From: Candidatus Gastranaerophilales bacterium | GTDB lineage: Bacteria > Cyanobacteriota > Vampirovibrionia > Gastranaerophilales > Gastranaerophilaceae | Direction of reading: 5' to 3' | Assembly: GCA_944326115.1 (NCBI GenBank) | Contig: CALVCQ010000020.1 | Coordinates: forward strand, 1-42,056 | DNA: 42,056 bases | In this document: positions 11,152 to 20,976 of the stretch, piece by piece | Layout: every line of letters starts with the position of its first letter | Position numbering within the stretch: the stretch's first letter is position 1 | Position numbers and translations under genes: made by a program | The notes under the pieces: generated by a model | What the model was told of the DNA's origin: nothing | The model's database searches: none | The model's input: only the letters and a program-made list of their open reading frames with translations

Positions 11152-13158
11152 TTACCATTCGATAATTACAGCACCCGGTGCACCCATACCGCCTTTGCCT
11201 TTGAGTCCGAGAGTGTTGCTGCTTCCGCCGCCGCCACCGCCTGCGCCAAAGTAGGTTCCGTTACCTCCATCAGTACAGTTTGCAGGAATTACTTGTGTTT
11301 CTGTTGCTTGATATGTATAAGGTGCTCCTGGTTCATATTCATTGCACACAAAATCACCCTTTTTAAGACTGTAAAAACCTTCATTCGGAACCATTGATGA
11401 TTGTTTTTCATAATAGTCTCCTGAAAAAACTACATCATAAGAATGCATAAAAGCCCCTACGGCTTCATTGCTGGCTGTTATGTCAGTCAAATTATAATAT
11501 TGGTTTTGCATAAAGCCGAGAAAGTTTTGATAATTCATTTCATAGTTGCCATGTTCTGCATCTGATTGTGCCGAATTATATACATAGCCAAGACAATAAA
11601 ATCCGTTAATAGGACAGGTTATTTTTCTGTCACTTGAAGAGTAATTAGTTTTTGTAGATACACCACCAACATAGTAAAATCCTGCTTTACATTTGTCGGA
11701 TGGTAAATACCCTGTTTTTTGAACTGTAACAGTTTTGTACTCAGTAGCTTTGCACTGACCGCCTGCACCTCCGCCTTTGTCAAGCCACAGAGAGTTTTTA
11801 CCTGACTCACCGCTTACATATCCTGCGTCAGCAGCAATTGCTTCACCGGTTGTGCCTTTTTTGCCAAACTGACTTGTGATTACTCTGGCAGCATTACCCT
11901 GTGAGTCATAAATTGTAGCTTTAGTTTGTTTGCCGTCTTCGCCGGATTTACCGCCCTGACCGACTGTAGCTACCAGCTTGCCTTTTATATTTGCAACAAC
12001 CGCTGTTTCAAGAGGTGAAGATTCTCCGCCTTTACCAGGTTTCTGTATTACCTGCCAGAGAACTACACGTCCTGCTTCACCGGTCTTTCCTGTAGACTGT
12101 GAATATTGAGCACCATAGCCGCCTGCGCCAAACGAACCGTATGCAGTATCACCCCAGAATTCTTTCGGTATGGATATACCTGTATTTGTAAATCCGAAAT
12201 AAGTATTATTTATCATCTGCTCATTTCCAATTGTTATACTGCCATGGTATCCGTTAAATTTGGTATTTTGAGACCATCTTCTGTTTGTATTGGTACGACC
12301 TGATACACCGACACTTGAATAAAATGTCTTTAAGAAGCTATTATAAGTACTATTTATAGAGAATGTACCGCCTACACCACCATCACCGCACTTAGGATCA
12401 GCTCCGCCAGAATTTTTGGTGGAACGACCGCTTTGTCCTGAACCGGCTGCTACAAAGTTAATATCGTTATTGAAACCAAATGTTGACCAATGTAAATCTC
12501 TGCCATATGCATATTCGCAATTTCTACCGCCATCAGAAACTGCTGCGGATGAATTAGCTACATTTGGCACTGAAGCCTTATAGATATTGGAGTAATTGAG
12601 TTTTACTTCACCAATCCAGTATCCGCCAGCTCCGCCCTGTCCGCCAATACCGCAATTAGGACAGCCATCAGAATCATCAGAACCGGAACCACCGCCGCCG
12701 TTGCCGATAACAGCAAGACGATATGTCCCTGTTTCAGGATTGGCTAGTATTTCGGATTCCCCATTACCAACATCAAGATATATTTTTCTTTCGGAGATAC
12801 CTTCTGCTCCGCCTCCGCCTCCGCCAATAACTGTAACGCCAAAGTTTTTAGCTTGCAATGGAGGGGTAAACGTACATGATGAACCGTCTCCTGCCAGTTC
12901 CCATGTAGAGGGGTCATTTATATCTCCTTCCGATGTTTGAGAGTTATAATAGACATGTTTGTAAGACGTGATGTTACCGTCTTTATCATATTGCGGTGCC
13001 AGTGTACATATCCACTGTCCCGAGCCGCCGTCTGTAATTTGTCTTTTCTTTTTTGTCAATATAGGAATTGACGCAAGTGTAATTAAACATACGATTAGCA
13101 GTGTAATCAGTGCTTCAGCAAGTGAAAAACCAAATTTCTTATTTGTTTCTTTTTTCAT
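11152..13158 (-). CDS. Giant glycine-rich prepilin-like protein (type IV pilin / type II pseudopilin leader)
   Basis: The 668-residue product starts with a class III leader: basic residues, then the prepilin-peptidase site KKFG/FSLAEALITLL (Phe at +1, Glu at +5) and a hydrophobic helix to about residue 30 ending ILTKKKRQ. After this comes a huge extracellular domain with many Gly runs (GGGGGGAEG, GNGGGGSG, GAGGYGAQ, a GGGGGG run near the C-terminus) and scattered Cys. Ordinary major pilins have 130-200 residues. I placed the start at 13158 because GGAG lies 7-8 nt upstream and the leader then has the right length; the longer frame to 13215 adds a poor leader. No pilus assembly genes adjoin it. 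Surface appendage, adhesin or predation structure are possibilities. Confidence 0.8.
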   Translation of the reverse strand: MKKETNKKFGFSLAEALITLLIVCLITLASIPILTKKKRQITDGGSGQWICTLAPQYDKDGNITSYKHVYYNSQTSEGDINDPSTWELAGDGSSCTFTPPLQAKNFGVTVIGGGGGGAEGISERKIYLDVGNGESEILANPETGTYRLAVIGNGGGGSGSDDSDGCPNCGIGGQGGAGGYWIGEVKLNYSNIYKASVPNVANSSAAVSDGGRNCEYAYGRDLHWSTFGFNNDINFVAAGSGQSGRSTKNSGGADPKCGDGGVGGTFSINSTYNSFLKTFYSSVGVSGRTNTNRRWSQNTKFNGYHGSITIGNEQMINNTYFGFTNTGISIPKEFWGDTAYGSFGAGGYGAQYSQSTGKTGEAGRVVLWQVIQKPGKGGESSPLETAVVANIKGKLVATVGQGGKSGEDGKQTKATIYDSQGNAARVITSQFGKKGTTGEAIAADAGYVSGESGKNSLWLDKGGGAGGQCKATEYKTVTVQKTGYLPSDKCKAGFYYVGGVSTKTNYSSSDRKITCPINGFYCLGYVYNSAQSDAEHGNYEMNYQNFLGFMQNQYYNLTDITASNEAVGAFMHSYDVVFSGDYYEKQSSMVPNEGFYSLKKGDFVCNEYEPGAPYTYQATETQVIPANCTDGGNGTYFGAGGGGGGSSNTLGLKGKGGMGAPGAVIIEW

Positions 13159-13287
13159 ATAAACTCCAGACTTATGCTGTAAACTTAAATTTTTTATTAA
13201 ATTTAATATATACAATTATTATACCCAATATTATATATTTTATAACATTAATTTTCAACTTATAAATTAGTTCTGTACGGGGCTAAT

Positions 13288-17658: not shown

Positions 17659-18585
17659 ATGATAAAATACGCTGTAAATCTTATAAAGAACACTTTTCAC
17701 CCACTTGAAATTGCAGAATCAGCACATGTTGAACACGGACAGACAGTGCTTGTTCGGACAGAAAAAGGTGAAGAAGTTGCTAAAGTTTTTATGGTTAACC
17801 CGCTGATAGCCAAAGCATGGGAAACAAAAATGCCCGAGGCTGTACCTTTAATACGGGTTCTTTCAAAAAAAGATTTTGAAACACTGGACGAAATAAAAAT
17901 AGCGGAAGAAGAAGCGTTTAAAACCTGTAAAGAATTAGTTGCGCAGCACAATCTGCAGATGAATCTTGTTCAAACAAAATATACTTTTGACAGAAGAAAA
18001 ATTACTTTTTACTACACTGCTCCCGAGAGAGTAGATTTTAGAGGTCTTTTAAAAGACCTTACACAGGTTTTTAAACGTGTAAGAATTGATTTAAGACACA
18101 TCGGTGTAAGAGATGAGACATCTCTTTTATGCGGCAACGGACTGTGCGGAAGACCGTTTTGCTGCTGCACATTTCTGAGAAAGTTTGACTCTATAAACAT
18201 AAAACTTGCAAAAGATCAAGGGATGCCGATTACCCCCGGTAAAATTTCAGGTACATGCGGAAGGCTTTTATGCTGTCTGAACTATGAATATAAAAATTAT
18301 ATTGATGCAGCAAAAGATATGCCGCCTGTAGGCTCAGGAGTAATGACGCCTGACGGGCTTGGAAGAGTTTGCTCTCTGCATTTTCTGAACAATGAAATAG
18401 CAGTCAAAACAGAAGACGGCAAGATAAAGAATTACAAAAAAGAAGAAATTGAAATGGTTGACAGCGATGTTAACATTGAAATTGATATTCAGGATACAAA
18501 CACAATATATCAAGAACAATCCGATTACAATGTTGATATAAAACAACTGGAAGACGACAGAAACAGCTCTACAGGAAATGTATAA
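17659..18585 (+). CDS. ricT: PSP1-domain protein, RicT (YaaT) family
   Basis: RicT is a subunit of the RicA-RicF-RicT Fe-S complex that in Bacillus helps RNase Y mature mRNAs and affects phosphorelay control. The PSP1 domain spans roughly residues 50-130; the central Cys-rich signature is clear (LLCGNGLCGRPFCC, then GTCGRLLCCLNYEY), supplying the cluster ligands. Length is 308 residues; the last 60 are acidic and Asn-rich and not conserved. Neither ricA nor ricF is nearby. The next gene follows after 60 nt and may be co-transcribed. Confidence 0.88.
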   Translation: MIKYAVNLIKNTFHPLEIAESAHVEHGQTVLVRTEKGEEVAKVFMVNPLIAKAWETKMPEAVPLIRVLSKKDFETLDEIKIAEEEAFKTCKELVAQHNLQMNLVQTKYTFDRRKITFYYTAPERVDFRGLLKDLTQVFKRVRIDLRHIGVRDETSLLCGNGLCGRPFCCCTFLRKFDSINIKLAKDQGMPITPGKISGTCGRLLCCLNYEYKNYIDAAKDMPPVGSGVMTPDGLGRVCSLHFLNNEIAVKTEDGKIKNYKKEEIEMVDSDVNIEIDIQDTNTIYQEQSDYNVDIKQLEDDRNSSTGNV

Positions 18586-18645: not shown

Positions 18646-20109
18646 ATGAAGACAACAAGAATGCAATACTGTATAAAAGCTGTACCCAGTGATGATACTT
18701 TTCAGATGGAATCATTGCTGAATGAGATGTCTTCTCTTGGATGGGAATTGTATACTATGCACGAAGTTGAAGTAGATGACGGCTTTAACTACAATTGCAT
18801 TTTTGTAAAAGAATGCGAAATCTCAACAACAGAAACCGAAGATGAAGAAGAAAGCATCTACGGCTATAAAACACAAATGCAAAAAATGATTTCAGCGCAA
18901 AGTGAACCTTATGAAAAATGTATTGATATACAAAGTAAAATAAAAGAAAAACGAAAAAGAATACATAACATAAAATCTCTTATTGACGAAACAGATGAAA
19001 CCCAAAGACAGGAACTCAATAACGAGATGTATAAAAATATGGAAGAATTAAAAGAATTAAGAAAACAGCTAGCCGATACGATTTCGCCGGAAATTATGCT
19101 GGATAAAATCGGGGAAGACAAAATCAAAATAAAGCTAAGTGAAGAAAATATCGAACTCGTAAACCCTGATCTTGATGCAAAGCTTGTAGCTGAAACTGTA
19201 AAAGTAAGACAAAATCTTACCGGAGAACTCGGTTACATAATTCCGAAAGTTAAATTCGAAAATGATGAATCACTTCAGGCAAATGAATTTGAAATTGATG
19301 TCAGAGGAGTTTGTGCGGCAAAAGGTGTTGTTTACACAGGATATTTGATGTTTTTTAAAGACGATTTGAATCTTGATAAACCATCTAAAGACATGATAAA
19401 AGACAGCGATCCTATCACAGGAAAAATTGTTTACTGGATTCCTGAGGGAAAGACAAAGGATTTCTGGGCACAAGGCTACAAGCCGGAACAGGTAATTTCC
19501 AGAATACTGGAATACGTATGCATAAAAAATGTAGAAGAAATTTTTGATTACAATGATATAAATAATTACATAGAAATTGTAAGCGAAAATAATCTTTACC
19601 TTATAGAAAACATCATTCCTGATTTTGTCTCTATTGCAGAGTTAAAATATATACTGACAAGTCTTATAAAAGAACGTGTATCTATAAAAGATATTGTATA
19701 TATTTTTGAAAAAATAAATGATTTTGCAGATGAAGAGACAAAAGAAGATTTACTTAGCAGGGTACGCCACTCGCTGTCACGTCAGATATCTAAAGGTATT
19801 GCTAACGAAAATAATGTAATACAAGCATTTGAATTAAACGAAGAATCTTTAAAATATCTTGCCGGGAAAATTTCCGGAAACAATACAATAATAAGAATAG
19901 ATAACACAAAAATAAAAGCAATAGTAAATAATATTTATAAAGTAATTGACAAAAACAATATAAATGCTGATGAAATAATCGTAATTGTACCTATGGAAAT
20001 AAGACAGGTAACAAGTGCCGTTCTTTCCCAGTTAATGCCTTCCGTCAAAGTTGTAGCAAGAGAAGAAATTGCAAACGGCTACACAACAGAAATTTATGAC
20101 AGAGTTTAA
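18646..20109 (+). CDS. Soluble protein with FlhA/FHIPEP cytoplasmic (C-terminal) domain
   Basis: The 487-residue product has no membrane segment. Residues about 1-55 look like a DUF4177-type domain (LLNEMSSLGWELYTM). Residues about 80-140 form a charged coiled coil. From about residue 155 to the end it follows the cytoplasmic domain of FlhA/LcrD-type secretion proteins: VRQNLTGELGYIIPKVKF; NEFEIDVRGVCAAKGVVYTG; YWIPEGKTKDFWAQGYKP; the helix LKYILTSLIKERVSIKDIVY; SRVRHSLSRQI; and the final VPMEIRQVTSAVLSQLMP with VAREEI. The N-terminal 8-helix membrane part of true FlhA, needed for export, is missing by design, since the upstream region is filled with other domains. No flagellar or type III gene is near. 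It may have been recruited as a binding module for another system. Confidence 0.8.
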   Translation: MKTTRMQYCIKAVPSDDTFQMESLLNEMSSLGWELYTMHEVEVDDGFNYNCIFVKECEISTTETEDEEESIYGYKTQMQKMISAQSEPYEKCIDIQSKIKEKRKRIHNIKSLIDETDETQRQELNNEMYKNMEELKELRKQLADTISPEIMLDKIGEDKIKIKLSEENIELVNPDLDAKLVAETVKVRQNLTGELGYIIPKVKFENDESLQANEFEIDVRGVCAAKGVVYTGYLMFFKDDLNLDKPSKDMIKDSDPITGKIVYWIPEGKTKDFWAQGYKPEQVISRILEYVCIKNVEEIFDYNDINNYIEIVSENNLYLIENIIPDFVSIAELKYILTSLIKERVSIKDIVYIFEKINDFADEETKEDLLSRVRHSLSRQISKGIANENNVIQAFELNEESLKYLAGKISGNNTIIRIDNTKIKAIVNNIYKVIDKNNINADEIIVIVPMEIRQVTSAVLSQLMPSVKVVAREEIANGYTTEIYDRV

Positions 20110-20124
20110 CTCTGTTAATTAATA

Positions 20125-20159
20125 AAAAAGCCTTCCTTTAAAAATAAGGAAGGCTTTTT
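20125..20159. terminator. Bidirectional terminator between the FlhA-like gene and rplR
   Basis: Perfect 14-bp stem (20125-20138 with 20146-20159), AAGCCTTCCTT / AAGGAAGGCTT core, A- and T-tracts at the ends. It ends the ribosomal operon on the minus strand and the ricT region on the plus strand. Confidence 0.88.
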
Positions 20160-20637: not shown

Positions 20638-20976
20638 TTATGCTTGTGTATCTAATATTAACTCAATTTTTGTCTTATTAACGTATTCTTGACCCAATTT
20701 TTTATCTAATTTATCAAATAAATCACACAAAATATAGGGATTGTCTATTATAGCCGAAACTCTTATACCCTTATCTTCTAAAATTTTATCTGACTTTGTT
20801 ATATCAAACCAATCAAGAGTTTTTGCATCTAGAAAAGATTGACCGTCTTTATTGGTATAATTCTCTTTGATATAGTCCTGAGCCTGTTTACATTTTGCGT
20901 CTATAAATTCAGAGCTGGTTCCTTTTGGAAATCTTATATCGTAAACGCCTTTAAATGATAAGGAATTAAGCTTCAT
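20638..20976 (-). CDS. Hypothetical protein inserted between rplF and rplR
   Basis: A 112-residue, soluble, acidic/basic mixed protein of no family known to me. It starts MKLNSLSFKGVYDIRFPKGT and ends KIELILDTQA; a Lys/Asp-rich middle contains SFLDAKTLDWFDITKSDK. It starts 12 nt after the rplF stop (the rplF side ends at 20989), so it is transcribed with the ribosomal genes. Between its stop and rplR there are 91 nt with Pro/GGG-type GC patches. It is not a ribosomal protein by sequence: not S5, L30, L15 or L36. Its presence inside the most conserved operon of bacteria is unusual. Confidence 0.8.
   Translation of the reverse strand: MKLNSLSFKGVYDIRFPKGTSSEFIDAKCKQAQDYIKENYTNKDGQSFLDAKTLDWFDITKSDKILEDKGIRVSAIIDNPYILCDLFDKLDKKLGQEYVNKTKIELILDTQA

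Follow-up and report, generated by a model that had tools for sequence, protein, structure and literature searches.

A soluble, stand-alone FlhA cytoplasmic domain conserved across the order Candidatus Gastranaerophilales

FlhA and SctV are the substrate-choosing part of type III secretion systems (T3SS), in which their cytoplasmic domain is ordinarily anchored at the membrane. The locus described here raises the question of what such a domain might do once it has been parted from that anchor. Within a 42,056-nucleotide stretch of DNA from a Candidatus Gastranaerophilales bacterium (GCA_944326115.1, contig CALVCQ010000020.1, forward strand; the whole of which we call ‘the window’), a 487-amino-acid (aa) open reading frame (ORF) at 18646–20109 on the + strand encodes the cytoplasmic domain of the FlhA/SctV family (FlhA_C) without the membrane half.

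Residues 127–477 of the product correspond to positions 307–654 of the Pfam family FHIPEP (PF00771; E 2e-52, 179 bits against a cut-off of 29); the profile alignment starting only at position 307 of 657, such that the membrane half of FHIPEP is left without a counterpart. No transmembrane segment was found in the stand-alone protein, whose peak 19-residue hydropathy is 1.4 as against 2.7–3.0 in full FlhA. Solved FlhA_C chains are matched by sequence (3mix at E 5.5e-26), and an AlphaFold2 model made with 48 family members as input has a mean predicted local distance difference test (pLDDT) score of 82; its C-terminal part matches FlhA_C 6ch1 with a Z score of 31.3 across 325 residues, all four subdomains (D1–D4) being covered. 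The initial annotation of this DNA, which had proposed a soluble FlhA_C protein and had named a profile search and a structure prediction as checks, is borne out by both: FHIPEP is matched, the predicted fold is the four-subdomain one rather than some other, and there is no membrane helix.

By fold and descent, the protein belongs to the FlhA/SctV family. With FlhA_C structures (3a5i, 6ch1, 3mix, 7amy) it shares the four-subdomain fold, residues of D3 and of the linker, and the invariant R188, G196, P200, W264, L340, D349, R374, R453 and E474; the fold of SctV proteins (YscV, CdsV, MxiA, SsaV) is likewise the same, at Z 22–30, although these too possess the membrane domain that is missing here, and the sequence lies nearer to FlhA models. 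Its scores nevertheless fall far under the equivalog cut-offs for full-length proteins—159.1 bits against 772.1 for the NCBIfam FlhA model (TIGR01398), and 96.7 against 692 for that of SctV (TIGR01399). It further departs from FlhA in having another N-terminus, in the replacement of F459, T490 and H491 (Salmonella numbering), and in being encoded outside T3SS operons. Because the protein falls short on several of the features by which an export gate is defined (the membrane half, the equivalog score, the chaperone-binding ‘dimple’ and the T3SS operon), we have not filed it as FlhA; no description of a stand-alone FlhA_C, or of FlhA in this lineage, was found in the literature searched.

Could the missing membrane half simply betray a decaying duplicate, or a piece of FlhA produced by assembly or annotation? 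In a first sample of 110 genomes of the order, 105 have full-length orthologs, and these are intact in 130 of the 131 high-quality genomes of a second, where they score at least 556 bits with any full-length FlhA reaching at most 288. Their length is uniform (median 488 aa, 128 sequences), the ratio of non-synonymous to synonymous substitution rates (dN/dS) is ~0.04 within the genus, like that of full-length FlhA, and a complete FlhA is encoded elsewhere in the genome; the protein is therefore not a fragment. The near-complete set of orthologs together with the low dN/dS refutes a fragment or pseudogene, an explanation to which we attach practically no credence. Nor does any relative have a full FlhA at this locus, an arrangement the annotation had envisaged as the sign of a truncated gene, and one apparent N-terminal truncation (in genome G086) proved to be an assembly edge, the gene running off the contig end at 116236. 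Outside the order, no ortholog was found in the other families sampled from the class and phylum. The stand-alone family is order-specific, near-universal within the order, and under strong purifying selection.

As to its descent, genomes of the order carry up to two export systems: a true flagellum, confined to part of the order, and a flagellum-type T3SS (hereafter ‘universal’) present in essentially all of its genomes, including those without a flagellin gene. Partial flagellar gene sets have been reported for most Gastranaerophilales (PMC4040986; PMC5877343), described earlier only as incomplete flagella (PMC4040986). It had been remarked that the window holds no further flagellar gene, which is true; yet two export systems and seven genes with flagellin domains are encoded elsewhere in the genome, whose FlhA relatives include the complete FlhA of the universal system (698 aa, contig C52) and a third FlhA_C-bearing protein (700 aa, contig C28). 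In a maximum-likelihood tree (IQ-TREE), the stand-alone proteins form one clade with a Shimodaira–Hasegawa-like approximate likelihood ratio (SH-aLRT) support of 100, and this clade groups with the universal FlhA and the C28 protein to the exclusion of flagellar FlhA, FlhA from other orders and the reference sequences from Salmonella and Bacillus (SH-aLRT 99). The tree comes from a quick search and has long branches, that of the stand-alone stem measuring 1.36, so that more confidence attaches to the clade itself than to the exact branching; the placement of the C28 protein is likewise unsure. The universal FlhA is the closest kin, with homology running on through the linker, but itself has the full membrane half, Y459, T490 and H491, and evolves slowly.

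The universal system comprises FliF-X-FliH-FlhA-FliI, FliMN-FliO-FliP-FliQ-?-FliR, FlhB, a cluster of FliJ, FliK-like and short hook-like proteins, and rod-like proteins, with no filament gene; its parts were seen at loci L064, L066, L230, L232, L278 (7053–9308), L280 (7683–10002) and L283 (5998–8378), flagellin-less genomes included. The X protein (326 aa; L064, 4601–5578) occupies the position of FliG between fliF and fliH and has no trustworthy Pfam match; nor is there a convincing one for a secreted-looking protein of 119 aa that lies between FliQ and FliR (L230, 6633–6989). The C28 protein (L065, 4781–6880; genome G000) is one more paralog with an FlhA_C that is akin to the universal FlhA; unlike the stand-alone protein, it carries the N-terminal part of X (58% identity), fused to an FlhA_C and partial membrane segments. 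It is restricted to a few species of the genus: genomes G002, G008 and G012 have related fusions, and pieces occur in G004 and G001.

Every genome of the order that has the stand-alone gene also has the universal T3SS. The gene is carried by 34 of the 37 single-FliP genomes of the window's family, and by all nine of the flagellin-less order genomes tested (9/9); a flagellum-specific role, taken as the sole one, is excluded by the latter. Since these flagellin-less genomes keep the universal T3SS, co-occurrence points to a role there, and we regard the protein, at roughly even odds, as an accessory or regulatory, soluble gate-ring paralog of the universal system that would use D3 and the linker for its assembly. 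We infer the tie to the T3SS from descent, this co-occurrence and the single operon context described below.

The pattern of conservation along the domain bears on what such a paralog may still do. Scoring in the stand-alone family those columns common to universal and flagellar FlhA, we find 8 of 21 retained in D1 (whose first part is residues 159–231, 19120–19338, with R188, G196 and P200 kept), 1 of 4 in D2 (residues 232–279, 19339–19482; strongly diverged, with a family-specific W274), 9 of 11 in D3 (residues 300–378, 19543–19779) and 4 of 18 in D4 (residues 379–480, 19780–20085), the most variable of the four; all lie on the + strand. The linker sequence is also kept, aligning with that of full FlhA. 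D2 and D4 line the docking cleft. D3 is the ring-forming subdomain in SctV and FlhA, driving SctV ring assembly (PMC8223533), and the nonamer of both proteins is stabilised by the linker (PMC8213127); with these two retained and the dimple, D2 and D4 changed, conservation is highest in the parts used for ring assembly, and change greatest in those of classical cargo docking.

The alteration is most legible in the dimple itself. In Salmonella FlhA, a hydrophobic dimple with D456, F459 and T490 docks filament chaperones (PMC8166844; PMC5932034), D456—its single charged residue—forming a hydrogen bond with a chaperone tyrosine, and the F459A substitution lowering ternary-complex stability and impairing motility (PMC5932034). 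Across 100 non-redundant stand-alone members, the D456 equivalent (D255 in the window protein; the site spans 19408–19503, + strand) is kept in 97%, that of F459 (T258) is T or S in 95% (T72/S23), that of T490 (R286) is R or K in 77% (R64/K13), and H491 is lost; in the order's universal FlhA, the last three of these positions read Y/F, T and H. The best explanation is that the stand-alone protein is not a classical chaperone dock, its dimple having been rebuilt family-wide. The initial annotation's proposal, a platform on which chaperones and late substrates would bind, is weakened, two of the three dimple residues being replaced throughout the family; the protein might still serve as a platform for ligands other than classical chaperones.

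Two further explanations turn on the same residues. The FlhA_C fold and the near-invariant D456 would suit a soluble hub that collects chaperones and late substrates in the cytosol and hands them to the membrane gate, without any part for RicT (the product of the upstream gene); we consider this unlikely, however, given the family-wide change of F459 to T/S (F459A being harmful in Salmonella; PMC5932034) and of T490 to R/K, the loss of H491, and the poor conservation of D2 and D4, which line the cleft where cargo would dock. Less probable again is a dominant-negative or decoy subunit, which, with its dimple blocked, would enter the FlhA ring and close the gate to one class of substrate: the retention of D3 and the linker, and the bulky charged residue in the dimple, are as this would have them, but a homo-ring is as possible as the hypothetical mixed one.

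The membrane half has given way to a composite N-terminal region. Residues 1–58 (18646–18819, + strand) form a predicted beta-alpha-beta-beta domain (pLDDT 90) with invariant columns L24, L25, N26, M28, G32, W33, Y36, E40 and F53, for which ‘DUF4177-like’ (PF13783) had been suggested; of 35 family members, 20 give a weak match to that profile at E up to 1 (the strongest at E 3.2e-4), but even at E 5 the window protein gives none. Searched alone, the domain gave only weak structural matches, to dodecin, the KCTD5 C-terminal domain and pieces of GNAT, which lie below a trustworthy level: Foldseek reached E 0.014 at best, with dodecins at 0.045, and the highest VIA Z score, 6.1, was to KCTD5. An acidic, variable stretch follows (residues 59–87, 18820–18906, + strand), described as a disordered linker and modelled with low confidence (pLDDT below 50 for 59–85).

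Residues 88–145 (18907–19080, + strand) are predicted to form a helical hairpin, with P88, C92, Q96, I99 and K110 conserved. The coiled coil of the initial annotation is recovered in this hairpin, yet its second helix belongs to the FlhA linker: residues 124–156 (19015–19113, + strand) align, as LNNEM...LKELRKQLADTISPEIMLDKIG with VNQDV...LENVKQNMQDLVNPNKMYERLG, to the stretch that, in the FlhA of the same genome, directly follows the last membrane helix, P148 and M151 included. Residues ~124–156 being homologous to the FlhA linker, the graft starts right after FlhA's last membrane helix; the replacement that had been proposed holds for the new head domain and stops short of these residues. 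FliJ and SctO are coiled coils that bind the export gate, and a short helical hairpin beside FlhA_C recalls them; that of the stand-alone protein is, however, shorter, with one helix supplied by the FlhA linker, and no FliJ profile appears among the 25 families listed as matches.

What of the gene's neighbours? Upstream, across a 60 bp gap, lies ricT (17659–18585, + strand; NF041131, 238.6 bits), for which a partnership had been floated, with a survey for the same domain order beside ricT as its check. By synteny, the adjacency is confined to the window's genus and two near genera (g1, g19 and g33) and lost elsewhere, where the gene is found beside bamA, skp and a nucleoside phosphorylase, clpP, the ribosomal L20 gene and others; we reject both a functional partnership on the strength of the operon and a single operon common to all members, as neighbours differ between families. 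A protein that has taken on a new function outside type III secretion—in RNA metabolism with RicT, for example—would be in keeping with the adjacency where it does occur, with scattered housekeeping neighbours and with fast evolution; it is nonetheless improbable in our judgement, the adjacency being recent, the universal T3SS being present in all order genomes with the gene, the protein grouping with the FlhA of that system, and the ring-type subdomain and linker being retained. In one family (f7; genomes G093 and G098), the gene lies between that for ribosomal L20 and fliJ-fliK-flgD-flgE, directly upstream of the latter, its FliJ neighbour scoring 64 bits.

Returning to the accessory gate-ring paralog, the FlhA of the universal T3SS would have been duplicated before the order radiated, and everything up to the last membrane helix exchanged for the DUF4177-like domain and a helix. 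The resulting cytosolic accessory or regulator may assemble by way of D3 and the linker, either as a ring of its own or onto the FlhA_C ring; its N-terminal domain and hairpin could supply an oligomerisation or partner site, and its ligands may be components of the gate or of the ATPase side, or else non-classical substrates, in which case chaperones of the FliS/FliT/FlgN type would not be received in the dimple. Several points weigh against this. A few genomes, among them G024 (98% complete) and G025, keep the universal T3SS without the gene, so the protein is not strictly needed; housekeeping neighbours in most genomes outside f7 mean that operon context gives no tie to the T3SS there; and the stand-alone family evolves much faster than universal FlhA, suggesting a possible shift of function. 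The conservation of D3 could, moreover, reflect a folding core rather than ring assembly. A bolder version we offer only tentatively, thinking it rather unlikely as a whole: an order-wide, filament-less, flagellum-derived T3SS with a second, soluble, dimple-blocked FlhA_C subunit, whose new N-terminal oligomerisation domain and separate or mixed ring would set which substrates pass. As a natural separation-of-function variant, the paralog could reveal which functions of FlhA_C can be uncoupled from the pore. It further draws attention to a second T3SS, itself largely unstudied, in gut bacteria that are abundant and for the most part uncultured.

Some other features of the window may be recorded. 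A terminator-like stem of 14 pairs (20125–20159), a consensus match only, lies between the stand-alone gene and a converging ribosomal-protein operon; it was reported on the − strand, with a T run on the + strand too, and we assign it no strand. Inside that operon, between L18-like and L6-like genes, is an unassigned ORF of 112 aa (20638–20976), with homologs at the same place in two relatives (L084 and L088). Further upstream, at 11152–13215, lies the gene for a 687-aa prepilin-like protein whose N-terminus is of the pilin type (KKFGFSLAEALITLLIVC) and which has a long region rich in glycine; comparable prepilin signals are seen again at N-termini in several neighbouring loci (L065, L141).
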